Origin: Hydra vulgaris | Taxonomy: Eukaryota; Cnidaria; Hydrozoa; Anthoathecata; Hydridae | Direction: 5' to 3' | DNA length: 64,000 bases | Assembly: GCF_038396675.1 (NCBI RefSeq) | Contig: NC_088928.1 | Span: 56,299,501 to 56,363,500, forward strand | Shown here: positions 9,991-27,088 of the stretch, piece by piece | Layout of the letters: each line of letters begins with the position of its first letter | Position numbering within the stretch: position 1 is the first letter of the stretch | The notes under the pieces: model-generated | Seen by the model: the letters and a program-made list of their open reading frames with translations, nothing else | What the model was told of the DNA's origin: nothing | The model's database searches: none | Made by a program: the position numbers and the translations under genes

Positions 9991-10747
9991 GACTATTTTT
10001 CCTTCAACAATCGCTTGCATTTTTAAAATTAGTGTAAAGAGATGTCGAGTAATGGAACATTGCATTAAACCATGTGTATTTACATTATACAATTATACAG
10101 TAATTTTAGTTCGCAAAATTGCGGATCCAAGGCCCGCTTCCATTTTATTTCAATAGGAGTTTTTTTCATAAGTATTCTAAAGAAAAAAAAGTATATATCT
10201 TTTTTTGTATTTTTTGTATTACTAATAAAAAGTTTTAAAATTTATCGGCAGTCCTATGACAGCCAATAAATTTAAAACTTCTTATTAGTAGTACAAAAAT
10301 GTAAGCCTATGCATAATCAATGTAAACCCACTTTTGGTAAAAAGTGAAACTAGAGTTTTTTATGTTTTTATCATAGATTTTCTTTTAAACACTTTTACAT
10401 AAAGTTTTTAGCAATATTATCAAAAAAATATTTTAAAAATAATTTCAACTAAAAATTATTTTAAACAAATCTTTCCAACTGTTTAGAAAATACGCGTATT
10501 GATGTGTAGGTAAAAAAAATCTTTTAGACTTCCTGAAAAATCCCCCCTCAGTTCTCCCCCTCCACCCCTTCATCCTTCTTCCTTAAATTTACCGAAAAAA
10601 TATGTCTTCGAAAAATATGTCAACCATTCATTTAATAATAATGAAGTTAAAGTTATTTCAAATTTATCTTAGATTGATTTAATGCTTAATCTATTGATTA
10701 GATAATTATAAAAATATTCATGTTTATTCATTATGTCATTAGTGATT
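9991..10747. other. AT-rich spacer with a foldback
   Basis: It holds an imperfect 30-bp inverted repeat at 10216-10245 and 10265-10294 (TACTAATAA ... TTATTAGTA) with a 19-nt loop. No coding signal. Confidence 0.6.
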
Positions 10748-10808
10748 GTTAGCAGCCGTGGCGCAATGGTCAGAGTTCTGACTCAAAACCAAGAGGTTTG
10801 AAGTTTTT
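10748..10808 (+). mobile_element. tRNA-derived SINE head (fragment)
   Basis: AGCCGTGGCGCAATGGTCAGAG matches a Pol III A box with its surrounding tRNA-like sequence. A weak B box (GAGGTTTGAAG) and a T run follow. It resembles the head of the SINE copy at 30472-30613. It is truncated and not a functional tRNA gene. Confidence 0.55.
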
Positions 10809-11102
10809 TTTGTTTCAGTTTATAACTTTTGGGTGGGGCAAAGTGTCTTTTTTAATTTGACGCCAAAAATTATATCTAGACTCTTTTCGATGTCAAAATA
10901 TTTAATCAAAATTTTTATGATATTTATTTGATTTTTATGAATCATTCTCATTGTTTCACAAGCGTAAGGCGTCATTACAAGTCATTGCATTGTGAAATCT
11001 TTTGTAAACGAAAAATGAAAAATAGTCTCTCCAGAGTTTATACTGTAATTACAAATCTCTACTAATACTAATTCACTTTTAAAAGCAAACGGTAGAGTTA
11101 AC

Positions 11103-11631
11103 ATGCCTAACCAAATTAGGAAACGAGCAGCTGATAGAAAAGAGCTTCAAAATGCTGAAAAGAAATGCAAATCGTTAACTGTATATTTTAAGTAAAAAAG
11201 TTATTCTGATCTTCTTTTTATAATAATTAGTTTGACTAGATATAGATATAGATATTATCTTTACGTTAAATTTTTTTATTATAGTACTTTTGTTATTACT
11301 TGTTTTTTATTGTAATGTTTACGCGAGTTTTTTTAATTTTGGGATAGTTTAAGATCTGAAAGTTTTATTATTAATTACTTACGTATCAAGTGTTTTTTAT
11401 TATCGACAGTTCTCAAAATGTAACCGATCAAACATTACTCGAAGTCGAAGAAAAAGAGGAAGTTGTTAAAGATGATAATAATGTTAACAAAAGCTTGTCA
11501 TGCGAAGTAGACCAAAAAATTTAAAAGAATGTGATTTTAAAGAAGAAGAAAAACGATATGATATTGACGAACTCTTGCGCGGAAACCAAGAATTATCACC
11601 ACATAAAATATACAAAATGTTTACGAACAAC
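11103..11631 (+). pseudogene. hAT/ZMYM1-like transposase-derived gene, 5' part
   Basis: Exon 1 (11103-11191) starts MPNQIRKRAADRKEL, ends KSLTVYF and meets a GTAAAA donor. Exon 2 starts at 11410 after TATCGACAG. It encodes an acidic linker, then HKIYKMFTNN up to the insertion point at 11631. There is a one-base frame slip in an A run near 11515. The frame resumes at 24073, so this is the 5' part of the pseudogene whose 3' part lies at 24073-25117. The layout (basic N-terminus, then a TTF/ZMYM-type Cys region, then a hAT dimerisation domain) is that of ZMYM1-like or domesticated hAT proteins. Confidence 0.75.
11626..11631. repeat. 6-bp target-site duplication, left copy (AACAAC)
   Basis: AACAAC lies directly outside the left terminal repeat and again at 24067-24072 directly outside the right one. 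Two Asn codons of the interrupted gene lie here, and the reading frame is continuous once a single copy is kept. A six-base duplication is the size made by Maverick/Polinton-type integrases. Confidence 0.9.
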
Positions 11632-11806
11632 TGATGATATAGTATGTTGGAAATATTTAAGACAAGAGACCGTCCGTCTGAGGTCAAAAAAAGCTAAAAA
11701 AAAAAACGAGCAAACGGTCACAAGCGATCAACCGATAAACCGAAAGGATCCGAGAAAAAAAAGGTCCCGAGTTAAAAAAAAAGAACGACGTCACGCACAT
11801 GCGCAT
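11632..11806 (+). repeat. left terminal inverted repeat
   Basis: Begins TGATGATATAGTATGTTGG. The outer 48 or so bases match the right terminus almost perfectly. Further in the match continues with indels through CGATCAACCGATAAACCG units to GACGTCACGCACATGCGC. It carries A-rich runs and repeated CCGAT-type words. Confidence 0.92.
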
Positions 11807-11842
11807 ATGTAAAATTTTTAATTAATGAAGCGTGACAAAAAG

Positions 11843-11850
11843 TATATAAA
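11843..11850 (+). promoter_or_regulatory. TATA box
   Basis: TATATAAA, 33 bp upstream of the ATG at 11883 and just inside the left terminal repeat. Likely promoter of the first rightward gene of the element. Confidence 0.55.
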
Positions 11851-11882
11851 GAGTGAAAAAAAATGAAATAGGTTCACAACGA

Positions 11883-12029
11883 ATGGAATCGAAAAACAAA
11901 CCGTTACAACAATTTCAAACTCCAACGACAGTAGCAGTAGTTCAACCTTATAAACCTGATCCTCCAATAGATAATGGTGGTACACACGACTTGCATGGGA
12001 ATCATATTCGAAATTTTGAAGTGTATTAA
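11883..12029 (+). CDS. small Pro-rich protein of the element
   Basis: 48 residues from the first ATG after the TATA box (MESKNKPLQQF), rich in T, V, Q and P (TPTTVAVVQPYKPDPP). No membrane segment and no known domain. It overlaps the next frame (11974-12186), which is in the +1 frame and begins within its last third. The two may have been one protein split by a frameshift, since the second frame gives a membrane tail right where this one stops. Function unknown. Confidence 0.45.
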   Translation: MESKNKPLQQFQTPTTVAVVQPYKPDPPIDNGGTHDLHGNHIRNFEVY

Positions 12030-12186
12030 TAAAGCAAAAATAGTGACAATATTAACACTTTCGAGCTTGTTTATTGTTATTGTAGTGGGAGGATATTTAT
12101 TTGGAGCGTTATTAGGAGTTTTTATATTACTTGGAACAATGTTGGGATTTTATATTTGTAATAAAATAATAAAAAACAAAGTGTAA
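11974..12186 (+). CDS. small two-pass membrane protein of the element
   Basis: 70 residues from ATG 11974. A short polar N-terminus (MVVHTTCMG) is followed by two hydrophobic segments, roughly residues 24-42 and 44-63, separated by GGYLFG, and a basic tail KIIKNKV. It looks like a small membrane protein, as many DNA viruses encode near their ends, but no family is recognised. It overlaps the preceding Pro-rich frame and may be its frameshifted continuation. Confidence 0.5.
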   Translation: MVVHTTCMGIIFEILKCINKAKIVTILTLSSLFIVIVVGGYLFGALLGVFILLGTMLGFYICNKIIKNKV

Positions 12187-12216
12187 AATTTTTTTATATA
12201 TTATATATTATAAATA

Positions 12217-12429
12217 TTATTTTCCAATTCTATTAATTCCGTAAGAAATTCCACCAGAGATAGCTCCACCCAAAACAGCTTTACCAATGGTAGGTAGAAG
12301 AGCACTAGTAAAGGAAGGTAAAACAACTTTAGCTAAAAGAGGTCCTAAAAACTTTCCACGCATTCGTCTTGTTCTATGTCTTTTATATTGACTTTTATAA
12401 TGTCTTTTTTTATGTCTTCTTTTATACAT
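12217..12429 (-). CDS. pX-like Arg-rich core peptide, copy 1
   Basis: 70 residues. It has a Lys/Arg/His-rich N-terminal half (MYKRRHKKRHYKSQYKRHRT), then RRMRGKFLGPLL at 21-32, then a Gly/Ala/Ile hydrophobic tail (GKAVLGGAISGG). This plan, basic then R-M-R-G then hydrophobic, is that of the adenovirus pX (mu precursor) and the X proteins of adintoviruses, which condense or bind virion DNA and associate with membranes. ISGG at 57-60 fits one form of the adenain cleavage pattern. First of a row of related genes; family assignment by motif only. Confidence 0.6.
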   Translation of the reverse strand: MYKRRHKKRHYKSQYKRHRTRRMRGKFLGPLLAKVVLPSFTSALLPTIGKAVLGGAISGGISYGINRIGK

Positions 12430-12433
12430 TTTT

Positions 12434-12646
12434 TTATCGCGGTATAAGTGATGTTAATAAAGTAGGTGCTAAAACAGCAGCTAACAATGGAAGAAATTTA
12501 CCACGCATGCGTTTACTTAAATGTCTTCTTAAACGTTTTCTACCTGCGCTTTTTAACGGAGGTAAATAAACTCTTCCTCTTCCTCTTTTTCTATGCATTA
12601 CGACATGTTTGAGGTTGGTTAAAGTAAATTTATATTGTAAAGTCAT
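12434..12646 (-). CDS. pX-like Arg-rich core peptide, copy 2
   Basis: 70 residues from ATG 12646, or 54 from the internal ATG at 12598. It carries KRGRGRVYLPPLKSAGRKR at 20-38 and KRMRGKFLPLL at 45-55, followed by a hydrophobic tail ending TSLIPR. The first module recurs in the next gene (12727-12957), also at DNA level. The second matches the R-M-R-G block of copy 1. It ends 4 bp before copy 1 begins. Probably a DNA-condensing virion peptide like adenovirus pX; function inferred. Confidence 0.6.
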   Translation of the reverse strand: MTLQYKFTLTNLKHVVMHRKRGRGRVYLPPLKSAGRKRLRRHLSKRMRGKFLPLLAAVLAPTLLTSLIPR

Positions 12647-12726
12647 GTTTTTTTAACATGATCAAATTTTGTTTTTTGCATTTATTTCTTTTAAGTTACA
12701 TACCAAGGGTAAATCTCTTAACTTGG

Positions 12727-12957
12727 TCAAAAAAATTTAGACAAACCTCTAAACGGTGGAATCAAATTAAGAGCTTTTTTAAAATCCTCTTTTTGACTAA
12801 TCGGTCGTAATTCTCCACCTCGAATTCTTTTTCTATGTCTTCTGAATCGCTTTCTACCTGCGCCTTTTAAAGGAGGTAAATAAACTCTACCTCTTCCTCT
12901 TTTTTTACATGAACTTTTTTTTATTTTACAAGCGCTGCAACAAAATTTTTTACGCAT
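12727..12957 (-). CDS. pX/core-like Arg-rich peptide with adenain-type cleavage motifs
   Basis: 76 residues. A Cys-rich start (CCSACKIKKSSC) is followed by KRGRGRVYLPPLKGAGRKR, then RHRKRIRGGELRPI and a less basic C-terminus ending GLSKFF. LKGAG at 30-34 fits the (M/I/L)xGx-G pattern and IRGGE at 45-49 fits the (M/I/L)xGG-x pattern of the adenovirus-type maturation protease. The ATG overlaps the end of the upstream gene by 8 bp (ATGCGTAA), so the two may be translationally coupled. No protease gene is visible in this element. Confidence 0.6.
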   Translation of the reverse strand: MRKKFCCSACKIKKSSCKKRGRGRVYLPPLKGAGRKRFRRHRKRIRGGELRPISQKEDFKKALNLIPPFRGLSKFF

Positions 12958-13138
12958 TGCGTTGCTTTTGAAGATAATCCAAAGCGTAACCTCCTACGTT
13001 TGATTTTAGTAGACGTTTAGCAAAATTTTTAACTTTGGTAAAAAATTTTCCTTTCCCTCTATGATGTCGCGCGCTACCTCTATGAAGACGACAATGATGA
13101 CGACGGTTTCCGCTTCTTCTTGTACGCCTGCGAGCCAT
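12950..13138 (-). CDS. Arg/His-rich basic core-like protein
   Basis: 62 residues from ATG 13138. MARRRTRRSGNRRHHCRLH and HHRGKGKFFTKVKNFAKR form a strongly basic body, with a mixed tail (SNVGGYALDYLQKQRNA). A few codons lie upstream in frame but start at a TTG and are not needed. The composition suggests a nucleic-acid-binding virion core protein. It heads the run of four basic genes. Confidence 0.55.
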   Translation of the reverse strand: MARRRTRRSGNRRHHCRLHRGSARHHRGKGKFFTKVKNFAKRLLKSNVGGYALDYLQKQRNA

Positions 13139-13272
13139 GAACACAACAAATAAAAAAAACAAGATTTATGGTTTTTTAAGATTTTTTTTAGAAATAAATA
13201 GTCGTTTGCTTATAAAATAATAAATACAAATAGGGTTTCTTTAATAAAATTAAAAATGTTTTTTATAACAAA

Positions 13273-13641
13273 TTAAGACGATTTAAATTTGGTAGGAATA
13301 TAGTTGAGATCAGTATCGTCTCCTGACCCAAGTTCTACAATTTGAGCTGGATATTGCAAATACATAACAAGTACACCTTTAAATTGTTCTGTAAATTTTA
13401 CATTGATTTGAAACGAATTATTTCCAGCAATGGTAGCAGGAGGTTTATCGTTGATAAAATTAAAATCGCTGGTGGTGTCAATGACTAAAGGTTCTGTAGT
13501 GTTAGTAGTACTAAAGTATAATTTAGGATGTCTCAAAAAACTATCGTCATCACTATTATAAAAATCTGCAAAATTGTTAATATTAAAAGTAGAAGGTGTA
13601 TTTCCTTTAGACCAGGAAGCATAACTTCCCAAATTGTCCAT
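13273..13641 (-). pseudogene. possible C-terminal fragment of a jelly-roll capsid protein
   Basis: 122 residues from ATG 13641. The sequence is Asn/Asp/Thr/Ser-rich with a final alternating stretch (FQINVKFTEQFKGVLVMYL, then an acidic turn) that looks like the last beta strands of a viral jelly-roll protein. It overlaps, in another frame, the 3' end of the 200-residue gene upstream. The frame of that gene runs into this region at TTEYDLTKQ, as if a deletion joined an unrelated gene to the tail of a capsid gene. No full-length hexon or penton is present. The structural reading is inference from residue pattern only. Confidence 0.35.
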
Positions 13642-14135
13642 TGATCATCTTGCTTTGTCAAATCGTATTCAGTAGTATCACCTGCTGAATTAACATATGG
13701 AAACATATGATTAAATTTATATACTAAATCTTGATTACATTCAATATGTTTATAAGCAAAAGTTATTAATTCTATAAAAATTTTTTCTATAAATTTTACA
13801 TCCGTTAAATATTTTTGAATACTATTATCCTCATCTATTATACTAAATGATGATAACATGTTTTTAATTTCATTTTCTGTAATTTCACATTGATGATAAA
13901 TATTGTCAAAAACAACCAAATATAAATTTAATGAAATAGTTTCATGAATAGTTCCAAACGATTGATAAAATTTCATTTTCATTTCAATCATATTATAAAG
14001 TGCATCACTAAATGTAATAACTTGACAGTCTTCTATAAAAGCAAGTATGGTTTCTAAACGAATATGTTGATCGGAATCTAGTTTTTTAATATCATCCCAA
14101 GCGCTCCAAATAACGTATTCTTTATCTTTTCTCAT
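13533..14135 (-). CDS. unknown protein of a duplicated family, fused 3' end
   Basis: 200 residues from ATG 14135, preceded by TTTTTTTAG and AACTAAT. Residues 1-150 match the broken neighbour at 14182-14704 (shared W-D-I---D--Q--RL--I and ELITFAYKHIECNQDL). The last 50 residues leave that family and turn into a hydrophobic tail read out of frame through the capsid-like fragment at 13273-13641. The duplicated family is not known to me. It is mostly helical and acidic. The fused tail is probably an accident of deletion. Confidence 0.55.
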   Translation of the reverse strand: MRKDKEYVIWSAWDDIKKLDSDQHIRLETILAFIEDCQVITFSDALYNMIEMKMKFYQSFGTIHETISLNLYLVVFDNIYHQCEITENEIKNMLSSFSIIDEDNSIQKYLTDVKFIEKIFIELITFAYKHIECNQDLVYKFNHMFPYVNSAGDTTEYDLTKQDDQWTIWEVMLPGLKEIHLLLLILTILQIFIIVMTIVF

Positions 14136-14181
14136 TTTTTAATTAGTTATCTAAAAAAATTACACTTATTTAAGCAAAAAA

Positions 14182-14704
14182 TTAAACAGATAAATGTTTA
14201 AAATTATAATGTAAATCGTGATTACATTCAATATAATTATAACTCAAAGTTAACAATTCTGAAAAGTTTTTTGCGATTGTTTGTAAACTCGATATATAAT
14301 TAATACAACTATTCTTTTTCATATCTTCTATAGATTTCGTATCTTCTATAGATTCCATATCTTCTATAGATTTCGTATCTTCTATAGATTCCATATCTTC
14401 TATAGATTTCATATCTTCTATAGATTCCATATCTTCTATAGATTCCATAATTAATTTTTCTCTATGACTACAATCAAGCTGAATTTTAGAAAAAATATCC
14501 AAATAGCAATCCAGTTTATTTATAGACATAACTTGAATTGCTTGCGTAAAAGAACTCTTAATATCCTTAACATCTTTGAGCACATTACTAAATGAGTCTG
14601 TTTGAAAGATATTAATAATAAGCGATTATTCTTGATAAACGTCCATATTGTTCTTCATCATGTTGAAAAATAGTATCCCAAGCTAAGCGTGTAGGCCAAT
14701 CCAT
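14182..14704 (-). pseudogene. paralogue of the 200-residue gene, frameshifted, with SIED repeats
   Basis: The ATG at 14704 follows TTTTTTTAG and AACTAAT. 30 codons (MDWPTRLAWDTIF) are open before a stop at 14614. The related downstream sequence lies in another frame from about 14616 to 14182 and ends YIECNHDLHYNFKHLSV, aligning with the intact paralogue. A tandem run of about seven 18-bp units (M/T-E/K-SIED) lies at 14328-14448. One indel near 14615 separates the halves. Confidence 0.6.
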
Positions 14705-14741
14705 TTTTTATTAGTTTTCTAAAAAAAGTTTACAAAAAAAA

Positions 14742-15289
14742 TTACTTAATTTTACATTTAATATACAAATTATTTTCAATTAAATAATCATCAATGTCTG
14801 CTGTCTTTATAAAATTACAATATCCATATCCAACATTTTCTTGATCTTTGACTGGTTGTTGAAAAGACACATTGTTTTCAGTCATAAAACTTTTTTTTAT
14901 TTGTTTACCATGAGGACCACATAATTTAAAAGTAATAACACGATTTATAAAAGGCCATTTTAATACTGCATCATAAGGTGTAGATCGCATCATTATATAT
15001 AAACCAATTTCTTCTTCTTCATGATTATCGCATTTCATATTGATATTCATTTTCATTAAAAATTGATAATTTTTATAAAAAAAGGAACACTATAATAAGC
15101 CTTGCTTTCATCTTTTATTTGTTCTTTAAAATTTTCAAAAATCCATATTTTGCTACCATGACCATTATTATTATGCATTTCTTCCAACATAGATAGACGA
15201 AAATCTAAATTCGTTATTTTGTTATTATATAATCCATTGAATAAAAAACTCGGATTGTCAGTGTAAATAAATGAAGGTGTGCCAGCCAT
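14742..15289 (-). pseudogene. TRAF-type MATH-domain gene, split by a -1 frame change
   Basis: The ATG at 15289 follows TTTTATTTTAG. The first frame (77 residues) has a coiled-coil-like lead (ITNLDFRLSMLEE) and the start of a MATH domain (GSKIWIFENF, YYSVPFF). The second frame (15056-14742) continues it: EIGLYIMMRST, YDAVLKWPF, VSFQQPVKD, GYGYCNF and IKCKIK, in the order of TRAF-C strands. TRAF MATH domains bind TNF-receptor-family tails and adaptor peptides. The frames meet at a T7 run near 15083. A -1 step there continues the domain, and the run is in phase as T TTT TTT. This could be programmed frameshifting or a simple deletion. No RING or TRAF zinc fingers are present, so it would be a binding-only protein, perhaps a captured host gene. 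Confidence 0.75.
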
Positions 15290-15343
15290 AATTTTTACTA
15301 ATCTAAAATAAAAAAATTATAAAAAAAATATTACAAAAAAAAT

Positions 15344-15547
15344 TTATTTTTTATCTATTTTTTCTTGTTCAATTTTTTCTTGATTTATTTTACTCGAGTT
15401 AAATAATTTTTTATATATATCTTCATCATCCTCGATTAAAATAATTTCTTCTGGTGTTGTTAAATCTATTTCGCAAAAGTTTAACTCTTGATCTTCTGTT
15501 TTTTCTGTATTCATCTTGTTGCGTTTTACAATGCGTGTTCGAGCCAT
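15344..15547 (-). CDS. small acidic protein with SUMO-interaction motifs
   Basis: 67 residues from ATG 15547 after GTGTTTTTTAG. The basic start MARTRIVKRNK may be a nuclear signal. EIDLT at 26-30 and IILIEDDED at 35-43 fit SUMO-interaction motifs (hydrophobic core beside acidic residues), and a charged tail EKIEQEKIDKK follows. It is the first gene of the leftward block. Viral proteins use such motifs to reach PML bodies or act on sumoylated proteins. That role is inferred from the motif only. Confidence 0.5.
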   Translation of the reverse strand: MARTRIVKRNKMNTEKTEDQELNFCEIDLTTPEEIILIEDDEDIYKKLFNSSKINQEKIEQEKIDKK

Positions 15548-15814
15548 TTGATTTTGTCAACTAAAAAACACGCTTTTTATGTATAAAATTTAATCTCTAC
15601 AGATTAACGCGAAATAAAAGCTAAAGTGATGCAACTTTATGCGATGAAAAGAAAATGCTGTGTCATGCTAGTTAAATTTAGAAAGTTTTAATACCGCTTT
15701 TATGAACAAGATTAAAGAGATTAAAATACGGAGTAAACAACTTTTTAATAACACTGCGAAGAAAAAAAACTCTGCGTAAAGTGTTTTAAATGAATTCAAA
15801 ACTCCATGAACCAT

Positions 15815-15900
15815 CACGTCGACGTAGCATAGTGCATTCGCATTCCGCACTATGTTTCAAACGCCATAACATTTGCCCGCCGTGGGTTCAAATCTCGCTC
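15815..15900 (+). promoter_or_regulatory. tRNA-like A/B-box pair (possible Pol III type 2 promoter)
   Basis: TAGCATAGTGC resembles an A box and GGGTTCAAATC a B box about 55 bp further on. The T-arm can pair (GTGGG with CTCGC around TTCAAAT), but no matching acceptor stem is seen, so it is not a tRNA gene. It could be a SINE relic or a small-RNA promoter like that of adenovirus VA RNA. It lies between the two gene blocks. Confidence 0.3.
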
Positions 15901-15910
15901 ATGTAATATC

Positions 15911-16482
15911 ATTTCTATGTTAAATTATCAAGTTGATAAAACTTGGTAGCGTATGTCTAGTTAGTTCTATGTTAAAAATATCAAGTTGGCGAAAGTTGAC
16001 TTGGTAATGTATGTCTAGTTAGTTCTATGTTAAAAATATCAAGTTGGCGAAAGTTGACTTGGTAATGTATGTCTAGTTAGTTCTATGTTAAAAATATCAA
16101 GTTGGCGAAAGTTGACTTGGTAATGTATGTCTAGTTAGTTCTATGTTAAAAATATCAAGTTGGCGAAAGTTGACTTGGTAATGTATGTCTAGTTAGTTCT
16201 ATGTTAAAAATATCAAGTTGGCGAAAGTTGACTTGGTAATGTATGTCTAGTTAGTTCTATGTTAAAAATATCAAGTTGGCGAAAGTTGACTTGGTAATGT
16301 ATGTCTAGTTAGTTCTATGTTAAAAATATCAAGTTGGCGAAAGTTGACTTGGTAATGTATGTCTAGTTAGTTCTATGTTAAAAATATCAAGTTGGCGAAA
16401 GTTGACTTGGTAATGTATGTCTAGTTAGTTCTATGTTAAAAATATCAAGTTGGCGAAAGTTGACTTGGTAGTGTATGTGGAG
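15911..16482. repeat. 58-bp tandem array, about nine near-identical copies
   Basis: The unit (CTAGTTAGTTCTATG ... AAGTTGACTTGG) repeats every 58 bp from 15961 to about 16480, with one divergent copy before it. Copies are virtually identical, so the array is young or homogenised. It has no coding frame and no T4 run. It lies exactly between the leftward and rightward gene blocks, where an origin, enhancer or insulator would be expected. Confidence 0.95.
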
Positions 16483-16509
16483 TGTGTGAGAACGAGTGAG
16501 CGTACGAGT

Positions 16510-16680
16510 GTGTGAGTAAGCAGGCTAAGGACTAAGGCAGGACTAAGTAAGTTAAGTAAGGACTAAGTAAGGTTAAGAAAGTAAGAAAAAATGCGTTCGT
16601 ATAAAAAAATAAACACTGTAAGAAAAAAATAAAAGTAAGTAGGCCTACTAAGACAAAGTAAAGACAGAATAAGTAAGGTT
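16510..16680 (+). promoter_or_regulatory. leader region: TATA box and a run of GTAAG donor-like sites
   Basis: GTAAG occurs at 16516, 16547, 16556, 16567, 16581, 16635 and 16673. Those at 16547 and 16635 are full GTAAGT. TATAAAAAAA starts at 16600. This is a plausible promoter and 5' leader for the rightward block, with donors that could splice to the T-rich/AG acceptors before each downstream gene. Confidence 0.4.
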
Positions 16681-16779
16681 GTGTCAGGGTGACACTATGT
16701 TTTTTATCTTGTAAAAAAAAGATATAAAAAAAAGTTAAAGTCAGAAAGTTAGAGTCAAAAAATTAAAGTAAAAAAAAAA

Positions 16780-17220
16780 ATGGCTGCAGATGATATTGAT
16801 TTTTCCCGTATGATTGTAAGACGGAATTTATTTTCAAGACCTCCGTATTATAAAAGTAACTTAAGACCCAAATATACATCTAAATTACCCAAATATACAG
16901 TAGATGGAAAATGGCCTTTTCATAGAGATGCCTTTTTTGAATTTTTTGATAGGACCTCATTTGATGAAAATGAGTTAGCAGATCCAAATAATACGGAAAT
17001 AAGAGCTCTAAGACGTAGAAGAGCTAAGAAAAATTTAAAAAAAATAAAGCGTCAAATTTGTAGAAAAGCACTGATGTGTTACCGAAAAACAAAAAGCAAG
17101 TATATAAATAATAAACAAAATCGTGAATTGGATCGAGTAGGAAAACCGATATATCGTTTTGTTTTAACAAAAGTGGATCGCAATAAACAAAGAAACGAAG
17201 TATTTTTAATATTTAAATGA
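16780..17220 (+). CDS. basic protein, first gene of the rightward block
   Basis: 146 residues from ATG 16780. An acidic start (MAADDIDFSRMI) is followed by an aromatic/Pro/Lys region (RPPYYKSNLRPKYTSK), then a very basic central helix (LRRRRAKKNLKKIKRQICRK) and a mixed end (YRFVLTKVDRN). It is probably a nucleic-acid-binding or core protein; no family is recognised. Its stop TGA overlaps the next ATG (ATGA). No T-rich acceptor precedes this gene, unlike those downstream. Confidence 0.6.
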   Translation: MAADDIDFSRMIVRRNLFSRPPYYKSNLRPKYTSKLPKYTVDGKWPFHRDAFFEFFDRTSFDENELADPNNTEIRALRRRRAKKNLKKIKRQICRKALMCYRKTKSKYINNKQNRELDRVGKPIYRFVLTKVDRNKQRNEVFLIFK

Positions 17221-17421
17221 GACATAGAAGACATAGAGGTCATAGAAATGCTAAAAGATATATTTTTGTTCACCGAAAATCGAGACCTCATCCTAGATTA
17301 CATCATTTGTTTAATTGGTAAAGGGCGAAAACGTATACTTAGAAAGCGTGGTAAAGGTATCCTTGGTAGCTTATTAGGTCATATACCCGTACTTGGTGGT
17401 GTATTTAAAACTATATTTTAA
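17217..17421 (+). CDS. pX-like basic and hydrophobic peptide in two overlapping frames
   Basis: Frame A, 17217-17321, 34 residues: MRHRRHRGHRNAKRY and a His/Arg-rich end. Frame B, ATG 17248 to 17421, 57 residues: its second half reads GKGRKRILRKRGKGILGS and then a hydrophobic GHIPVLGG tail. Together they give the basic-then-hydrophobic plan of the pX-like peptides at 12.2-12.6 kb, so one gene with a frame change near 17310 is likely. Which frame is used at the start cannot be decided here. Confidence 0.45.
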
Positions 17422-17434
17422 TCGGATTAAAAAA

Positions 17435-17697
17435 CATGTATAAAAAAGCACAACTTTGTAAAACGTTTATTTACAAAAAATGAATTCAACAGTGTGCAAA
17501 CATGTAAAAAGAAAGACGCATATAAAAAAGTATTGCGACAAATGTTTCGTTCAAAAATTTCGACAGCATGTTCAAGAAAATTTAAAAGAATATCTATGGT
17601 TGATAAAAGAATGGAAAAACAGAACAATAAGCTTAAAAATTTACGAACATCTGTTCGTAAATTTTTAAGCTTATTTTTAAACGAGCGCGTTTGGTGA
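17435..17697 (+). CDS. short basic protein(s), frame uncertain
   Basis: Three short frames overlap: ATG 17435 (15 codons), ATG 17480 to 17668 (62 residues with HIKKYCDKC), and an ATG-less frame to 17697 (KKKDAYKKVLRQMFRSK). The last has the Lys/Arg composition of the other core-like genes and may be frameshifted from the first. The 3' end overlaps the perfect hairpin at 17626-17675. No family is recognised. Confidence 0.35.
17626..17675. terminator. perfect 24-bp inverted repeat with a 2-nt loop
   Basis: Arms 17626-17649 and 17652-17675 are exact reverse complements centred on TC (ACGAACA TC TGTTCGT at the tip, AAGCTT in the stem). It would form a stable hairpin. It could mark a transcript end or a replication structure. 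It sits at the 3' end of the first rightward gene cluster. Confidence 0.6.
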
Positions 17698-18019
17698 TTA
17701 TATACTTACTTATGAATATGAAAACGGTATCGTCGAAATCATCAGTAGTGATAAAGAAAACGGACACTTGAAAATATCTACTTTTTTTTTTTTTTTTGGG
17801 GGGGGGGGGTTATATTAGATTTTGACATTGTAATAAATTGTATTGTTTATCACATATCAATGACGGTGTGTTTTATGTCGGTAATAAAATACCAAAAATA
17901 TATTGATAAAAAAAATATTTAATAGTGTTTTTTCTGTTTGTTTTTTTCCAAAAAAAAGACTATAAATTTAGTTTTTTTGAAATAAAAAAAATTCATTTTG
18001 ATCAAAATTTATTGAAAAA
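17698..18019. other. decayed stretch with a T17/G10 homopolymer junction
   Basis: An open remnant (YEYENGIVEIISSDKENG) runs to 17780 without a start codon, then a long T run followed by a G run. An AT-rich spacer continues to the next gene. It is probably a relic of another element gene. Confidence 0.4.
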
Positions 18020-18541
18020 ATGGAGTTTAAAACTTGTTTAAACGATTTTTATAAATCGATTAATAATTTAGAAACTTAATCCTTTACAACGGATGATAGT
18101 TTAAAACAAGTCCAGGGTAATTTTAAATTATTTTTTCGTTTGGATGGAAGTAAACAAATCAAAGTAACTCGTGTTAATAATAAAGCCCATATTGATTTTA
18201 TTTATGGTGAAAACAAACACGAATTTGAAATGGTCTATGAAGACTTTGTTAATGTTATTAAAGAGTCATTTAACATTTGGTTACTCGAAGAAGCAGACAT
18301 AAAAATTGAATTTTAAAGCTTATGCAGAGATTTATTATCCGTTTCCGCAATTACAAGATTTTTTTATTTCACTATTTAAAACGAATAGTAAAGCCAAGAG
18401 AGATTTTTCATTGTCACATTGTTTAAAACAGGGACAAATTATTAAAGTAACACGTTCCAATGAACATCTCAATGTTGTGTTTATATATGAAGATGGAAAC
18501 GAACATTCTTTTGAAATTCCTTTGAAAAATTTTTTATTGTA
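18020..18541 (+). pseudogene. two-copy repeated-domain gene, broken by a stop, a frame shift and a MITE
   Basis: Copy 1: ATG 18020 (MEFKTCLNDFYKS), in-frame TAA at 18077, open again to 18316. Copy 2: a frame with no ATG from 18306 to the MITE. Both carry a matching core (KQIKVTR ... FIYG-N-HEFE in copy 1, QIIKVTR ... FIYEDGNEHSFE in copy 2). The stop codon of copy 2 is made by the first base of the MITE at 18542. Past the MITE, 19470 onward continues the alignment with copy 1 (shared WLL-E). No family is recognised. Confidence 0.55.
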
Positions 18542-19469
18542 GGGGAGACCGGGGCTAGTTGGCCGCAGGGGTAAGTTGACGAACTGCGTTTATCTTTAGA
18601 GCCTTTCATAAGAAAGTGACAAAAATTACTCAGAAACTTCCTTATTGACCATTTCATCATTCACTGTAGTATTGTCAGGATTCGCGCATGCGCATGGGAG
18701 ATATTGAGATTTATGCGTTTTTTGGACAAAAACGTAACTTTTAGAACATCGCTTCTTGTTTAATTTACAAAGAAAATGTTTAGTCGTATGAAAAAAAAAT
18801 TATTGTAAAAGTTCCAGTCACAATTGGTTTACTATATCCAGTCAGACTTTTTTTTCTAAGCTGCTGTTTTTCAGGATCTATAGACTGTTTATTAAAAAAA
18901 AAAGCTTTCGGGGTAAGTTGACAAATTTTTCACGGGGTAAGTTGACTCGTAGCATTTACTATGGAAAAAAATATTTATTTTTATAAAATTATTATTATTA
19001 TTTTTTTTAATTTTTAACAATATTGAAAATATTTATTCTTACAAAAAAATTAAAAAAAAAATCTTTTTAGTTTTTTTTACCACAGATAAAAGGTGGGCTA
19101 CTGTTTGGCTTTTATACGGACTAATATTTGGTACCAACTAAAGGTAATATTAAATTTTGGGATAAAATTGTTGCAAAAATTAATTTTAAAAAAATTTCTA
19201 TTAATTTTGCACTTAATAGTGCATTAAAAGTCATTTTTATAGTTTGCGCCAACTTACCCCGTGGTGGGGTAAGTTGGCGCAAATTTTTTTTTTTTTTTCT
19301 GAGGGCCCGGAAAGGCCCCAAGATTTTTTTTTTGTAAATGAATGCAAATTTTATAAGAAAACCTAATCCATACTCTTTAAGACTACACTTTAATATTTTT
19401 AAAAAAATGTACTGTTAGGGCTACAGAGCTCATAGAGTAAAAACCGAGCCAACTAGCCCCGGTCTCCCC
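18542..19469. mobile_element. 928-bp MITE with GGGGAGACC ends and TA duplication
   Basis: The termini GGGGAGACCGGGGCTAGTT and their reverse complement are identical over 22 bp and flanked by TA at 18540-18541 and 19470-19471. GGGGTAAGTTGAC-type words recur inside (18568, 18909, 18934). A perfect 18-bp inverted repeat (19243-19260 and 19266-19283, loop GTGGT) lies near the right end. A small frame here (19128-19337) is incidental. The TA target site suggests mobilisation by a Tc1/mariner-like or related transposase; the superfamily is not settled. It inserted into an element gene after the element arrived or during its life. Confidence 0.85.
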
Positions 19470-19492
19470 TATGTTATCCATTGTCAAGAAAA

Positions 19493-19756
19493 ATGGCTTT
19501 TAGGCGAAAAAGACAGAATCATAGATCTAAAACACGTAAGAGTAATAAAAAGAGGATACGCAGATTGGTAAGAGGAAGAGGATTAGCTGATTTTATAACC
19601 CCTAAAAATGTAACCAACGCATTGCAGGTGGGTTCGCTGTTATACGGTATAAAAAAAGCGTGGAAAGGCAAAAAAACAAAAACTGCTCCTGTTCCTGTTG
19701 TTACAAAACCCGCCAACCCTTATATGCCTCCGGAAAAAGTGTTTGAAGTATATTAA
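19493..19756 (+). CDS. basic core-like protein with amphipathic middle
   Basis: 87 residues from ATG 19493 (MAFRRKRQNHRSKTRKSNKK). RRLVRGRGLADFITPKNV and VGSLLYGIKKAWKGKK follow, with a Pro-rich tail (PVPVVTKPANPYMPPEK). It shares the basic-then-amphipathic plan of the other pX-like genes. Its start lies within the overlapping tail of the gene cut by the MITE. Probably a virion core or membrane-active peptide; inference only. Confidence 0.55.
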   Translation: MAFRRKRQNHRSKTRKSNKKRIRRLVRGRGLADFITPKNVTNALQVGSLLYGIKKAWKGKKTKTAPVPVVTKPANPYMPPEKVFEVY

Positions 19757-19787
19757 AAAAATAGTTGTAAAAAAATATTATATTAAT

Positions 19788-20111
19788 TCATTTAATGAAT
19801 ATATATGTACAAATAAAAAATTGTTTGTTTTTTCTTCTCCTTTTTTTCTTTTTGTATCGTTTGATGGTAATTATTTTTTTTCCTTTACAAGTTAAACACT
19901 GCGTCTTGTGAAGATGTATTTTGACCGCTCTTTTAGTAATGGTGTTAAATATCCACACTTCTTTATTTAATACGTGAATCGTGCAATTTTTTAATAAAGC
20001 TTCTTTTTTTTTATCTTTTAATACGAGGAAATAGAGTTCGCCATAACCATTGCACGTAGCGCATTTTTCTTTGACAATTTCTTCTAGTAGTGTGTGTGCT
20101 GTTCTCTTCAT
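19788..20111 (-). CDS. small zinc protein with twin CxxCxGxG-type motifs
   Basis: 107 residues from ATG 20111, on the opposite strand to its neighbours. CATCNGYG at 17-24 and CLTCKGKK at 72-79 are half-sites like those of the DnaJ zinc domain (CxxCxGxG), here as a single pair that could bind one zinc ion. A long Lys/Arg run (KRYKKKKRRRKNK) follows. There is no J domain. It could be a DnaJ-like cofactor or an unrelated zinc ribbon. Convergent with the gene at 19493-19756. Confidence 0.55.
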   Translation of the reverse strand: MKRTAHTLLEEIVKEKCATCNGYGELYFLVLKDKKKEALLKNCTIHVLNKEVWIFNTITKRAVKIHLHKTQCLTCKGKKIITIKRYKKKKRRRKNKQFFICTYIFIK

Positions 20112-20165
20112 GATTCTGTTTATATTAAATTCAGAGCAATCTGCCTTTTTATTTCTTTTTTAGTC

Positions 20166-20458
20166 ATGACATCATCAATAGGTACATCTAAAAATTGACT
20201 GGCTGTCTTTAATCGAGACCTTGACGATGCTTTAAAATGGCCTTTGACCAAAAAAGTCATTTTTACCTTGAGAGATGAAGATAAATTTTTTGCTCGCACT
20301 ATTACGAATGATAATTATCTTTAAAGTTTAGAGGCTAGTTCTTTTGATAAACCGAAGAATATAATGTGGCTGTTGGTTTCAACAATTTTATTTCGCATGA
20401 AGAACTAAAACAATTTATTATTAATAATAATTTATTTATCCCGATTACTATTCAATAA
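20166..20458 (+). pseudogene. second TRAF-type MATH-domain remnant
   Basis: The ATG at 20166 directly follows TTTCTTTTTTAG. After 10 codons there is a TGA, then an open stretch DALKWPLTKKVIFTLRDED, an in-frame TAA at about 20322, ASSFDKPKN, a frame change near 20360, and a tail FIINNNLFIPITIQ. DALKWPL, F-KP and the C-terminal strand align with YDAVLKWPF, FQQPVKD and NLYIKCKI of the MATH gene at 14742-15289. Only the C-terminal half of the domain is present. It is clearly dead. Confidence 0.65.
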
Positions 20459-20564
20459 TATATTTTATGTAAAAAATGTATTTTTTCTCCTTTTTTGATA
20501 TGTATTTGTACTTTTTTATCTATAATTATTATACATTATTTTTTTTAGATTAACTAATAAAAAA

Positions 20565-21017
20565 ATGAATGCAATAGAAATATTCAAAGAAATCAGTCTG
20601 GAACTAACCATTGCCATCGTGAAATCTATCAAATTTATGCTCAGAATACCTTTTGGAATCAAAGAAACTTTAAAAAATGGTTTGGATATTGTAGAGTATT
20701 TTAAAGATAACACTATACAAAGCGAACAAGGGCATATTTACGAATCACTAGAAAGTAAATTGGAATATTTACTTGTATTATGCAAAACTATTCATCGAAT
20801 GGATATTGTCACTAAATATAAAAATCAAATACCACGACTACCTACTTACGAAGAAAGCATAGTTAAAAATCTACCACCTGTTTACTCTCCACCCAATACA
20901 TTTTATCCAAGTGCTGTCGTAGAAGCCAAACAAGAAGAACTTTTAAATTTTTATCATTTTTGTAATGCTGAACCACCTGAAGCACCTGAATGTGCCCAAG
21001 AACCAGAATTCCTCTAA
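20565..21017 (+). CDS. PPxY protein with an N-terminal amphipathic segment
   Basis: 150 residues from ATG 20565. Residues 5-47 form an alternating hydrophobic/charged segment (IFKEISLELTIAIVKSIKF). The middle is helical. RLPTYEES at 91-98 and LPPVYSPP at 103-110 follow, and the tail is Pro/Glu-rich. PPVY is a WW-binding late-domain motif that recruits Nedd4-type ubiquitin ligases. Adenovirus protein VI also combines an amphipathic helix with a PPxY motif; the similarity here is in plan only. The frame is undamaged. A strong hairpin follows the stop. Confidence 0.55.
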   Translation: MNAIEIFKEISLELTIAIVKSIKFMLRIPFGIKETLKNGLDIVEYFKDNTIQSEQGHIYESLESKLEYLLVLCKTIHRMDIVTKYKNQIPRLPTYEESIVKNLPPVYSPPNTFYPSAVVEAKQEELLNFYHFCNAEPPEAPECAQEPEFL

Positions 21018-21027
21018 AAAACTTTTT

Positions 21028-21087
21028 TTTGGGAATCAATTCATAGTTTTTTTACTTGTATAGTAAAACTATGAGTTGATTCCCAAA
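21028..21087. terminator. long inverted repeat after the PPxY gene
   Basis: TTTGGGAATCAATTCATAG pairs with CTATGAGTTGATTCCCAAA with one G-T step, about 26-bp arms and a short loop. It lies 10 bp after the stop codon and is a candidate transcript-end or processing structure. Confidence 0.55.
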
Positions 21088-21149
21088 CAATATTTTTTTA
21101 TTCTATTTTTTAACTATTTGTAACTTTTTTTTAGACAATTAATTAAAAA

Positions 21150-21857
21150 ATGGGCAGCGATTGGGGCAATATTGGCACCATACTTGATAGAGAATTTACT
21201 TCATTTCGCTACTTTCTGTATAAACGTGGAAAACAAATGGAACGAAAAAATAAAGTTAAAAAAGTGGACAAAAAAACAAGAGATCGTTGCCGTTATTTGG
21301 AAAACATTCATTCTCATATTAAAAACTTTGAACAAGAAACACTGATTTGGTTTAACCCAGAAGAACGACATTTTTCTTATTATCTTTTTCATTACGATGA
21401 CCCATGAAAATCAATCTCAACTCACCTTGAAAGATTTATGTAAAAGAACTTTGGCACATCAACGAATTCGTTTTGAATTTACACAGTTACAAAATAAAAT
21501 CTTTTCTCTGTTCGATAAACCAAACTACCACTTACCAGATGGAAAAATAAAGATAATATTAGATTATTGTTTTATAGCTTTCATTCGCTAATTCGTTTTG
21601 AATTGGAATCCTTTTTGAATGTTAAAAAAAAACATTTATTATTTTTTCATCTTCAAAGACGTTATCTTTACAATTTATTTCATTTACTTTTTACAGAAAT
21701 ATCGTATTTTGCTGATCCACGTAAACAACTAGAAACACATTTAATGAAAAAACTATATCATTTAATAATGGAATATATAAATTGGTCAAAACAACAATAT
21801 TTTTATACTACTGAACCTTGTTTTATTCATTTTAATATTGTAAAACAATTTTTTTAA
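21150..21857 (+). pseudogene. BC-box family gene, copy 1, in three frames
   Basis: Three overlapping frames (21150-21407, 21397-21591, 21567-21857) together align with the intact copy 3. The first has LIWFNPEERH, the second LTLKDLCKRTL (an elongin-BC box, TLxxxCxxxL), and the third YINWSKQQYFY. Two indels, near 21400 and 21580, break it. The first frame starts MGSDWGNIG and has a Lys-rich insert that copies 2 and 3 lack. Confidence 0.65.
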
Positions 21858-21883
21858 TTTTTTTTTAGATAACTAATAAAAAA

Positions 21884-22347
21884 ATGCAATATTACGAAAG
21901 AAGCAAAAACTTTTACGAATACAAGTTCATCCACATTGTCAGATGGTTTTGTATTGAATCAAAAAATAACATGGATCAAGATATAAAATCCTTAAAACAA
22001 TTATGTAAAAGAAATTTAGCTATTAGAAGAACTAAAATCGAATTGGAATTATTAAAAGATCAACTAGGATTTTTATATCCTCGGTTCAATTCTGAGGATT
22101 TTTTTTATATTAGTTATAAATTGACTTTTTTAAACGATCATAATTTATTTTTTTGGATACAAAGAAGAATTATATTTTATTTACATCGATTATTTAGATC
22201 ACATATTTTAATCCCTTTATTAATGATGATGAAGTTCAATTTTTCTATAATTGTGCTATGAAATATGCTCAATGGACAGTAGATCAATATTATTATATTA
22301 TTGAAAATAATTTTGCAAATTATAAAAATAATATTTTATATTTATAG
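21884..22347 (+). pseudogene. BC-box family gene, copy 2, frameshifted near the 3' end
   Basis: The ATG at 21884 follows TTTTTTTTAGATAACTAAT. WFCIESKN and SLKQLCKRNLAI (BC box) are intact. The frame runs off at 22261, but a second frame from about 22205 to the TAG at 22347 keeps the family ending (AQWTVDQYYYII). One indel near 22210 explains both. Confidence 0.65.
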
Positions 22348-22361
22348 CTAAACTAATAAAA

Positions 22362-22859
22362 ATGCAACTAATAAGAAAAAGTTTTGAAGAATACAACATG
22401 CATTATCACGAATGGGTATGGTTTTGTCCACAAACAAGACTAGACTATAAATACGAAAAAGTACCTACGTTAAAACAATTATGCAAAAGAAAAATGGGAT
22501 TAGCAAGAATACAAATTGAAATGGAAACATTTTTAAAAGAACTTGGCAAAGTAATTCCTATTGAATATTACGATTCGGATAAATATATTATTTGGACTCA
22601 AACTTTTTACACGACGACTGAAATTGGACCTCGATTCTTATACAGAAAACATTTGGAATTTTTTTTTGATCAAGCTTTTTTTTTATATATAACTGTTGAA
22701 ATTTTTAACTCTCATTATATTCTACCTTATTTAAATAATACACAATATGATCATTTTTATATTTTATTAAAAAATTATGTAAATTGGGCTTTAGAGCAAT
22801 ATTATTATATTATTTCTCATCAATTTGTACATAAAAATGATGTTATTTTATATTTATAG
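22362..22859 (+). CDS. BC-box (elongin BC-binding) family protein, copy 3, intact
   Basis: 165 residues from ATG 22362. WVWFCPQTRLDY precedes PTLKQLCKRKMGLARI at 35-50, which fits the BC-box consensus (S/T/P)LxxxCxxxPhi. A helical body follows, then VNWALEQYYYIIS and a hydrophobic end ILYL. Proteins with a BC box recruit elongins B and C and a cullin (Cul2 or Cul5) to make ubiquitin ligases. Several viruses do this to destroy host factors. No clear cullin box was found. It is the only one of the three tandem copies with a single open frame, so selection may be retaining it. Function inferred from the motif. Confidence 0.55.
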   Translation: MQLIRKSFEEYNMHYHEWVWFCPQTRLDYKYEKVPTLKQLCKRKMGLARIQIEMETFLKELGKVIPIEYYDSDKYIIWTQTFYTTTEIGPRFLYRKHLEFFFDQAFFLYITVEIFNSHYILPYLNNTQYDHFYILLKNYVNWALEQYYYIISHQFVHKNDVILYL

Positions 22860-22895
22860 CAAAACTAATAATAAAAATGAAAACATATATAAAAA

Positions 22896-23148
22896 ATGAA
22901 AACATATACAAAAAATAAAAAAATACCAAAAAAAGTACGCCAACAAATGAAAGGTATATTTTTTTTTTATTTTTTAAAAATTCTAATTTTTTATTTATTT
23001 AAACTCATTTTGTTTCTTTTTTACAGCCATGTATGCCTACTATTTTTGTTTACAAAAGGAATCTCTCACTCAATCACGATTATTAAACCAAAGATACTTT
23101 TGTGTAAAAAAATGTGGCTCGTGTCAAGCTTGTAAATTACCAAAATAA
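22896..23148 (+). CDS. small spliced Lys/Cys-rich protein
   Basis: Exon 1, 22896-22953, codes MKTYTKNKKIPKKVRQQMK. The intron 22954-23026 is GTATAT to TTTTTTACAG, 73 bp. Exon 2, 23027-23148, codes AMYAYYFCLQKE and ends FCVKKCGSCQACKLPK. Reading through the intron gives only a T-rich hydrophobic frame. The C-terminal cysteine cluster (C-x3-C-x2-C-x2-C) may bind zinc. A tandem duplication of the start (22877 and 22896) puts an upstream ATG in another frame. The splice model rests on consensus sites and coding continuity. Confidence 0.6.
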
Positions 23149-23283
23149 CTTTTGTATTATTTTATTTTAGAATATATTTTTTTATTACATTTGTCTTTTT
23201 TATTCCTTATTTTTTTTATTTTTTATTCCTCTTTTTTTATACAACTTTATACTAACATTCTTTTTTTTAGATATAAATAAAAA

Positions 23284-23379
23284 ATGAATATTAATAATGA
23301 TGAAAATTGGGAAACGGAACTCGTTGCTCCATCTTTTGAATTCCAACAACCAAACATGAAATTTTGTAAAGTGCAATAA
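23284..23379 (+). CDS. 31-residue peptide
   Basis: MNINNDENWETELVAPSFEF, ending FCKVQ. It follows the standard T-rich/AG start arrangement. It is acidic. The downstream frame at 23411-23509 has related ENW/EEW--CDAP words, so this may be a truncated repeat protein. Confidence 0.4.
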   Translation: MNINNDENWETELVAPSFEFQQPNMKFCKVQ

Positions 23380-23410
23380 ATTAGAAGTTATAAACTTAAA
23401 AACAAAATAA

Positions 23411-23509
23411 TCACAAGAAAAAATAGAAGAAAAATCAATATGTGACGCTCCTCCCTTTAAGATCGAAGAAGAATGGATTTGTGACGCCCCCCCCCCCCAT
23501 TTAATTTAA
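23411..23509 (+). pseudogene. remnant with repeated CDAPP words
   Basis: A frame without an ATG reads SICDAPPFKIEEEWICDAPP and ends in a poly-C tract. Two copies of the word I-C-D-A-P-P suggest a short tandem repeat coding part. It may continue the peptide at 23284. Weak evidence. Confidence 0.25.
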
Positions 23510-23588
23510 ACTGTAAATACTATTATGAATAAATTTTGTAAATATTATTATGAATAAATTTTTTTTATTTTTTTAGCAAACTAATACA

Positions 23589-23774
23589 ATGATTGAAAAT
23601 TCAAATTGTGTGGAGAAAAAAATTGTTTTGACAGTTGAAGAAGGACTATTCGTTGTAGAAATGTCTAAAATATATAACATAACCTTCATCGAAGAACTCG
23701 ATATTTATAATAACTACATCACGATTGGAAAAGAAGTTTACCCAAACATGACGTTTGAAAATTTTGTGAAATAA
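23589..23774 (+). CDS. 61-residue acidic protein, last gene of the rightward block
   Basis: MIENSNCVEKKIVLTVEEGL, a mixed alpha/beta-looking sequence ending NMTFENFVK. It is preceded by TTTTTTTAGCAAACTAATAC 12 nt before the ATG. No family recognised. The frame is intact and lies about 100 bp before the right terminal repeat. Confidence 0.5.
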   Translation: MIENSNCVEKKIVLTVEEGLFVVEMSKIYNITFIEELDIYNNYITIGKEVYPNMTFENFVK

Positions 23775-23872
23775 AAACTACCCTATTTTCAGGGAGCAGT
23801 ATTGTAATTTTGAATTGTATCAGTTTTTTTATATAAAAAAATTTTTACACCTTATCCTTTCATTTTTTTGTC

Positions 23873-24066
23873 TGCGCATGCGCGTGACGTCGTTCTTTTT
23901 TTGCTCGGAACCTTTTTTTAATTGGGACCTTTCAGTTTATCGGTTTTTCGGTTTATCGGTTGATCGGTTGATCGCTTGTAACCGGTGGCTCGTTTTTTTT
24001 TGAGCTTTTTTTGACCTCGGACGGACGGTCTCTTGTCTTAAATATTTCCAACATACTATATCATCA
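23873..24066 (-). repeat. right terminal inverted repeat
   Basis: Reverse complement begins TGATGATATAGTATGTTGG like the left end. It is slightly longer than the left repeat because of extra AACCGAT-type units. It ends at 24066, next to the AACAAC duplication at 24067-24072. Confidence 0.92.
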
Positions 24067-24072
24067 AACAAC

Positions 24073-25117
24073 TTAAAACAGAAGATATATTTTCGATTTC
24101 CCAAAACATTAAAACATCGTTGCAAACGCGCTTGTAAAGAAGAATATTTACAAAATGGATTTGTTTACAGCAAAAGTGAAGACGCAGTCTACTGCATATA
24201 CTGCACTTTATTTCTAAATCAGGATAAAAAAATCTTTTGGAGCTTTTGTTAACCGTGGATGTAAGGAATGGCACAATGTTTTAGAGAAACAAAATCTACA
24301 TATAGGCAATAGATATCATAAAGAAGCTATCGAACAAGCTAATGGCATTTGTTGTCGTTTTGAAGATCCAAGACAAACCATTCCATTACAAAGCGATAGC
24401 ACTTTAAAAAACCGACAACAAATGTACCCGTACATTGTTGAAACATTAGGTAGAATAGTGCATTTGATGGGGAAACAAGGACTTGCATTTCGTGGAACTT
24501 ATGAAAAGTGTATGAAAAACTCAGACCAAAAAGGTAATCCTGAAAACTTTCCTGCATTTGTGAAAGAAATAGCTCGCCATAACGCTGAACTCAATGCGCA
24601 TATACAAACACCATTACGCAAAGATGTCAGCTACCTTGGCCCCAATAAAGGAGTTTATTGCATTAATGAGGAGACAAGACAAATTGCATTACTGCTAAGG
24701 TTTTGTGCTTGGTTCCCTCGATAATTTGCAGTGAGGAGATAACTGCTTTCCAGGAGTTAGTTGAAATGTATAAAAGTGATCTTCCAAACTCAGAAGCTGT
24801 AGATCAAGAATTCATGTTTTGGAAAAGAAAATGGTCTGTCATTAAACCTGAAGATAGACCTAATACTCTAGCTAAAGCCATTAAAATCTGCGATGAAAAT
24901 TAACATCCTTATCTCTTTGAGTTTCTAAAGATATACACTAGCCGTAACGTCCACAGAATGTGAACACAGCTTTTCAGCAATGCGAAGATTAAGAACATGG
25001 TTGAGAGCCAGTATGACTGCAAATAGACTTGGTTCATTAGCCATCATGAATATCCACTACAATAAAATTGTTGATTATAAACAAGTCTCAAAATTATTTT
25101 TTACTTTACAACCTTGA
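24073..25117 (+). pseudogene. hAT/ZMYM1-like transposase-derived gene, 3' part
   Basis: The frame continues from 11631: a FRFPKT stretch, CKRACKEEYL, then YCIYCTLFL, a TTF/ZMYM-type zinc region. A one-base shift near 24228 leads to WHNVLEKQNLHIGNRYHKEA and then ETLGRIVHLMGKQGLAFRG. An internal deletion near 24700 removes the catalytic middle. The C-terminus (24930-25117, broken by shifts) has VTSTECEHSFSAMRRLRTWL, the hAT dimerisation signature. Dead before or after the insertion; the shift at 11515 and these breaks cannot be dated relative to it. Confidence 0.8.
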
Positions 25118-26882: not shown

Positions 26883-27088
26883 TTACCAGAGTAAAAGTTA
26901 AATTGTTTAAATCATATTGCATTTGTTTATATGGTGGCAAAATTATGTTTATATCTGTGGCAAAATTATAATGAGAAGATTACTAAGATTACTAAGATCA
27001 TCGGAACCTTAAAAAAAATAATAAAAATAAAAATAAACAAACAAATTAACAAATACATTGTAAAGTATAAGTTACAATAAAGTAGAAC

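Follow-up and report, generated by a model that had tools for sequence, protein, structure and literature searches.

What is the 12.4-kb insert that interrupts an open frame in a 64,000-nucleotide stretch of Hydra vulgaris DNA (NC_088928.1, positions 56,299,501 to 56,363,500; the window, to whose own numbering coordinates refer)? An initial annotation, made from the sequence alone, took it for a complete virus-like mobile element and offered two origins, a non-autonomous satellite of a Maverick/adintovirus or a badly reduced relative of one. From comparison with related copies across the Hydra genome, the insert is very probably one integrated Hydra Maverick-type copy that lost its core genes and was rearranged, the favoured course being a collapse after insertion. 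The 12.4-kb copy is private and defective, and the parental element measures roughly 30-50 kb. An apparently new 12-kb virus-like element would then reflect a familiar process, the internal collapse of a Maverick-type copy.

The insertion occupies positions 11632-24066 (12,435 bp) and is bounded by two exact copies of the 6-bp target duplication AACAAC, at 11626-11631 and 24067-24072. Alignment of the termini revealed inverted repeats at 11632-11805 on the forward strand (beginning TGATGATATAGTATG, and used to score terminus matches genome-wide) and at 23873-24066 on the reverse strand. Over the 174 and 194 bp aligned, the two repeats are 80% identical with gaps counted; they show one mismatch within the outer 64 bp and diverge further inward by indels in a region of short repeats. 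When the flanks were joined in silico by deleting the element and one AACAAC, a single open frame ran across the site, so that both the exact ends and the read-through described in the initial annotation are confirmed. The interrupted frame had also been called a transposase; two downstream pieces of it gave no Pfam match at E<=0.01, and this identity is unconfirmed. An Rfam scan over 9000-27000 returned no match and a tRNA search found none. A GACGTCACG stretch lies in both termini (11776-11805 and 23873-23902) near TATA-like sequences, and it resembles a cyclic AMP response element (CRE) site.

A 107-bp terminus was used as a probe against the 911.5-Mb assembly (15 contigs), and the best 40 of 65 candidates were scored. 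By orientation and distance, 26 of these 40 termini paired into 13 elements, the window copy included, and 14 stayed unpaired. Pair lengths were 12.4, 34.0, 30.3, 33.7, 41.7, 39.5, 29.2, 41.3, 43.8, 53.4, 45.2, 2.35 and 1.87 kb, ten of the 13 spanning 29-53 kb; interiors were inspected for five pairs other than that of the window (three of them in pieces), the remaining pairs being defined by their ends alone. The copies share the same ends, as the initial annotation would have it, and nine of the 13 pairs carry an exact 6-bp duplication (two of these nine sit in AT repeats and are uninformative), with five of six bases agreeing in one pair and a mismatch in three. Five of the nine exact duplications start with AAC or AAT (AACAAC, AACATA, AACATC, AATATC, AACGAC), which may reflect a weak target preference. 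Identity between termini is 96.0% in the 30.3-kb C13 copy and 96.5% in the C8 copy, 91.3% and 88.8% in the two very short copies and, as stated, 80% in the window copy; this divergence suggests that the window copy is an older insertion, an argument weakened by the repeat indels.

Three of the long copies were read in unjoined pieces (C13, 30.3 kb, L011-L014; C8, 34.0 kb, L015-L018; C13, 43.8 kb, L041-L043), and their gene content is pooled here, not every gene being present in each. All three match the rve integrase (E=4.4e-7 at 30.5 bits, with a cut-off of 32.6; E=2.8e-4; E=0.01). The C8 copy encodes a PIF1-type helicase (E=6.2e-34; L017:133-1208), which adjoins its polymerase-like fragments; PIF1 is not known as a standard Maverick gene. 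Scans of the long-copy pieces gave no match for Pfam PolB, none for an OTU-like domain in these frameshift-broken pieces, and none for a chromodomain, although the rve core matched. An adenovirus-type protease was not matched among the subset of long-copy open reading frames (ORFs) scanned, NCBIfam gave no convincing match for five such ORFs, and a 458-aa long-copy ORF had no relative in a large protein database and no significant sequence match in the PDB. Along shared stretches the C13 and C8 copies are about 83-98% identical.

How, then, does the window copy relate to these long copies? Its blocks match them at about 75-98%, in a different arrangement. Read in the orientation of the window, the C8 copy begins with the left end and the core genes, continues through block B and a further segment to block A, which is reversed, and finishes with the right block and the right end; the 30.3-kb C13 copy likewise has block A reversed, and block B is unmatched in the pieces read from it. 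The window copy instead runs from the left end (11632-13699) through a 7-bp filler into block B (13707 to about 15340), then through block A, which is inverted with respect to the two long copies compared (securely 15528-20215, forward strand), into the right block (20217-24066). Three junctions result: J1 at the filler (13700-13706), J2 between block B and block A (15317-15342, approximate and A/T-rich) and J3 between block A and the right block (20215-20217). J1 truncates a conserved long-copy gene and joins it to a block-B gene, while J3 truncates a TRAF/MATH gene. The blocks thus match two long copies save for deletions and one inversion and, given longer elements with the same termini, the alternative of a badly reduced Maverick in the initial annotation is supported.

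The junctions bear directly on the other origin offered, a non-autonomous satellite family multiplying through helper Mavericks. At J1, none of 56 other aligned rows covers 13550-13706 (best 40 of 464 candidates scored); at J2, none of 41 other rows covers 15240-15316 (best 40 of 403); at J3 (query base 186), 39 others end at bases 185-188 and the window alone spans it (best 40 of 472). Each junction is therefore shared by 0 of 39 other scored places. Any sister would be expected high in the ranking, so that the 12.4-kb form seems to exist only once in this assembly, with a small doubt left by the scoring of the best 40 candidates per junction. A satellite would retain both termini and have longer relatives, as the window copy does, yet its junctions should recur, and we regard this origin as very improbable. 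An intact compact virus of 12.4 kb resembling adintoviruses is less credible still and can hardly be entertained. It would account for the many small ORFs that stay open and for a weak Adeno_PX resemblance, but it is contradicted by the genes truncated at J1 and J3; moreover, a scan of 20 window ORFs gave no above-chance match for integrase, polymerase, packaging ATPase or helicase, and matches to such genes occur in the longer relatives.

On the favoured account of a Maverick-type copy that collapsed in place, the full-length parent would have been replicated by its own polymerase, using its inverted ends, and inserted by a retrovirus-type integrase with the 6-bp stagger of Maverick integration. 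Breaks after insertion, joined end to end, would then have deleted the core region, inverted an accessory block and truncated two genes. End joining is proposed because J1 holds a filler and J3 a short overlap, both typical of that process. The remnant should be incapable of replicating or integrating by itself, and its surviving DED and TRAF/MATH genes would be leftovers of parental host-manipulation genes. Replication of the parent was presumably protein-primed and its integration rve-dependent, as in the Mavericks described in PMC6431247 and PMC9683012. Nucleotide identity of the surviving window ORFs to other copies is 87-99.5%, and in 28 comparisons with other copies the ratio of nonsynonymous to synonymous substitution rates (dN/dS) spans 0 to 1.36; one value is undefined (dS=0) and 19 of 28 are at 0.2-0.9, a pattern that fits, but does not prove, selection in the parent followed by drift.

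Insertion of the full element with subsequent collapse would be the simplest order of events; its chief rival is the reverse order, a collapse during replication that preceded one integration. The very short copies of 2.35 kb (G000:C13:33185079-33187431) and 1.87 kb (G000:C12:17821375-17823247) both have exact 6-bp duplications, and each retains its right end together with part of the left-end ORFs. A defective viral genome, in which deletion and inversion occurred during replication of the parent and a single integration of both ends by the parent's integrase followed, would explain why ends and duplication are perfect despite a gutted interior, and why all three short elements among the 13 pairs (12.4, 2.35 and 1.87 kb) have lost neither end and still carry roughly the outermost 0.8 kb on the left. 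Nothing demands it, however, as in-place deletion would look alike, and like the junctions of the 12.4-kb element that of the 2.35-kb copy is found in no other scored copy (0 of 39 other places, best 40 of 333 candidates). We therefore hold a defective viral genome to be possible but rather unlikely. Broader and more doubtful is the proposal that the short copies are replication-born defective genomes of a circulating or recently circulating Hydra Maverick-type virus, that the left end holds cis-acting replication or packaging signals, and that the DED, Death-domain and TRAF/MATH proteins of the family act on cnidarian cell-death and NF-kB-type pathways.

Several observations count against a collapsed Maverick-type copy, or against part of that account. 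Timing is one, in that a single deletion before integration would give an identical picture. The Maverick assignment of the parent draws on matches that are weak: those to rve fall short of the curated cut-off in all three long copies; the ATPase-type fragments (ATPase_2, E=2.5e-4; Pox_A32, E=0.0035) lie under their curated cut-offs; and the PolB-like fragments show an exonuclease-like motif in pieces of three of three long copies and a DTDS motif in one. A genome-wide search with PF03175 gave no match, and neither did its controls. Intactness is shown for no long copy: genes of the C13 and C8 copies are broken into several ORFs, the C13 copy contains a Tc1-type insertion and the C8 copy a Mutator-type fragment. 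The junction searches scored the best 40 of 403-472 first-look candidates each. Finally, several window ORFs remain open and 19 of 28 dN/dS values lie at 0.2-0.9, so that decay is not far advanced.

The estimate of about 25 small genes proved generous: many ORFs are present, but those with an ATG start within the element and at least 70 aa number 18, and at least one of these is an artefact. From the left, a 70-aa hydrophobic ORF (11974-12186, forward) is 98.6 and 100% identical to two long copies and is followed by four short basic ORFs (12217-13138, reverse). One of these ORFs provides the only trace of the adenovirus-style genes that had been proposed, a weak Adeno_PX match (E=0.049; its 14 bits fall short of the cut-off of 25) that has no counterpart among ten ORFs of the long copies. 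At 13276-13699 (reverse) lies the C-terminal remnant, truncated and in two frames, of the conserved long-copy protein L011:1574-2449. Block B opens with two related ORFs of unassigned function (13707-14529, reverse), the first of which J1 fuses to remnant sequence; the 200-aa ORF at 13533-14135 is the artefact of this fusion across the deletion junction and has no relative in the large protein database. It continues with a TRAF/MATH-domain gene split across two frames (14742-15289, reverse), whose domain exceeds the Pfam cut-off (E=9.3e-17). A 58-bp tandem array of 9.3 copies (15941-16478) separates mostly leftward from mostly rightward ORFs.

Further right, a 146-aa basic ORF (16780-17220, forward) is 92 and 95% identical to two long copies, where its matches contain 1 and 2 stops. 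A 928-bp insertion resembling a miniature inverted-repeat transposable element, with TA on both sides (18542-19469), is absent from two long copies, in one of which the empty site was read. An 87-aa basic ORF (19493-19756, forward) is conserved in the long copies compared, and a 107-aa ORF with CxxC pairs (19788-20111, reverse) has a weak DnaJ zinc-finger match under the cut-off. Beyond J3 follow the C-terminal remnant of a second TRAF/MATH gene (20217-20460, forward; end approximate), which contains a stop; a 150-aa DED-like protein whose tail is rich in proline (20565-21017, forward); and ORFs that include repeats of one gene type with an LKxLCKRxLA-like motif (21150-22859, forward). The DED match lies under the cut-off (E=1.5e-5, 25.6 bits against 35.9), and a PDB sequence search with the protein gave no match. 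Several ORFs are preceded by a similar leader (14136-14160, 20525-20564, 21126-21149 and 21860-21883) consisting of a T-run, AGA, an ACTAAT-like sequence, an A-run and the ATG, which may be a splice acceptor or a promoter element. A looser motif, a pyrimidine-run plus AG, precedes 4 of 18 ORFs versus 32 of 398 background ATGs, a non-significant difference (P=0.06). PMC12220107 suggests that transcripts of Hydra transposable elements (TEs) use a spliced leader. Elsewhere in the window lie a host-type rhodopsin-family receptor gene (43413-44603, reverse; E=5.4e-53), a host-type DAN-domain protein gene (56695-57249, forward; E=1.8e-22) and a long low-complexity tandem stretch (62213-62720) with several frames open on both strands.

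The conserved protein truncated at J1 is a virion-protein candidate in its long-copy form. It has two relatives in the large protein database: Hydra vulgaris LOC124815749, 64% identical over 56% of its length, and the metagenomic protein P0002 (314 aa, on a 1,265-bp contig), 51% identical over 99%. The latter hints at relatives outside the Hydra genome. Considered as a possible double jelly-roll capsid protein of the Maverick/Polinton kind, the candidate gave a structure model with a mean predicted local distance difference test (pLDDT) score of 31, and the best match of its profile in the PDB is non-significant (E=0.23).

The host-interaction genes reported in the initial annotation stand, TRAF/MATH being well supported and DED moderately, and the main interest of the locus is this set of cell-death-type genes within a cnidarian Maverick-type family. 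Long copies contribute a coiled-coil plus MATH protein (C13; E=1.1e-18), a Death-domain protein over its cut-off (C8; E=4.1e-7) and DED-like proteins under theirs (C13 and C8; E=1.6e-5 and 1.4e-3). The cell-death-type genes of the long copies map to L015:4689-5057 (reverse), L013:5917-6726 (forward), L013:6847-7299 (forward) and L015:2173-2709 (reverse). It is possible that the Death-domain, coiled-coil TRAF/MATH and DED-like genes are agents on cell-death signalling. A multi-copy family in the model animal Hydra includes long copies that bear death-effector, death-domain and TRAF-type genes. If host signalling is what these genes act on, such pathways would already have been targets of DNA viruses in early-branching animals.

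Among known systems, Mavericks/Polintons come first. The 6-bp target duplication is a hallmark of this group, and the window copy shares it along with inverted termini, while the long relatives share an rve match, PolB-like motifs and packaging-ATPase-like fragments. Unlike a Maverick/Polinton, the window copy has no core gene, rve integrase included, that was recognised in the 20 ORFs scanned; its termini read TGATG...CATCA, where Polinton termini read AG...CT/TC; and the long relatives also have PIF1, DED, Death and TRAF/MATH genes. With adintoviruses the family has in common small basic ORFs that weakly resemble those of adenoviruses, cell-death-type genes and, in the long relatives, an integrase match. 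The adintovirus label is nonetheless not upheld, as neither a hexon nor a PolB of adintovirus type was recognised in the sequence searches made. Further traits of adintoviruses are a PolB whose N terminus bears an OTU-like domain and an integrase that ends in a chromodomain, and the scans of long-copy pieces described above matched neither domain. PMC11071296 defines adintoviruses by a hexon that is reciprocally recognisable by a BLASTp-type search; of two virion-gene candidates checked, neither a proven hexon, one had no relatives and the other the Hydra and metagenomic proteins described above. IMG/VR scans confirmed no relative and phage records yielded none. Deletion derivatives of DNA transposons (Ds-type; PMC3260210) similarly keep their termini and lose their interior, and the 12.4- and 2.35-kb elements each have their own junctions; unlike Ds-type derivatives, the short form here gives no sign of having been mobilised. 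A narrow and incomplete literature search found no account of a cnidarian Maverick-type family with DED, Death and TRAF/MATH genes. PMC11071308 names a Hydra polinton, P1-HM, in a figure legend, and PMC12220107 counts Maverick as one of 14 TE families that are enriched in Hydra AEP and putatively active. Mavericks in Hydra are already known, and the window copy adds an internally deleted one.

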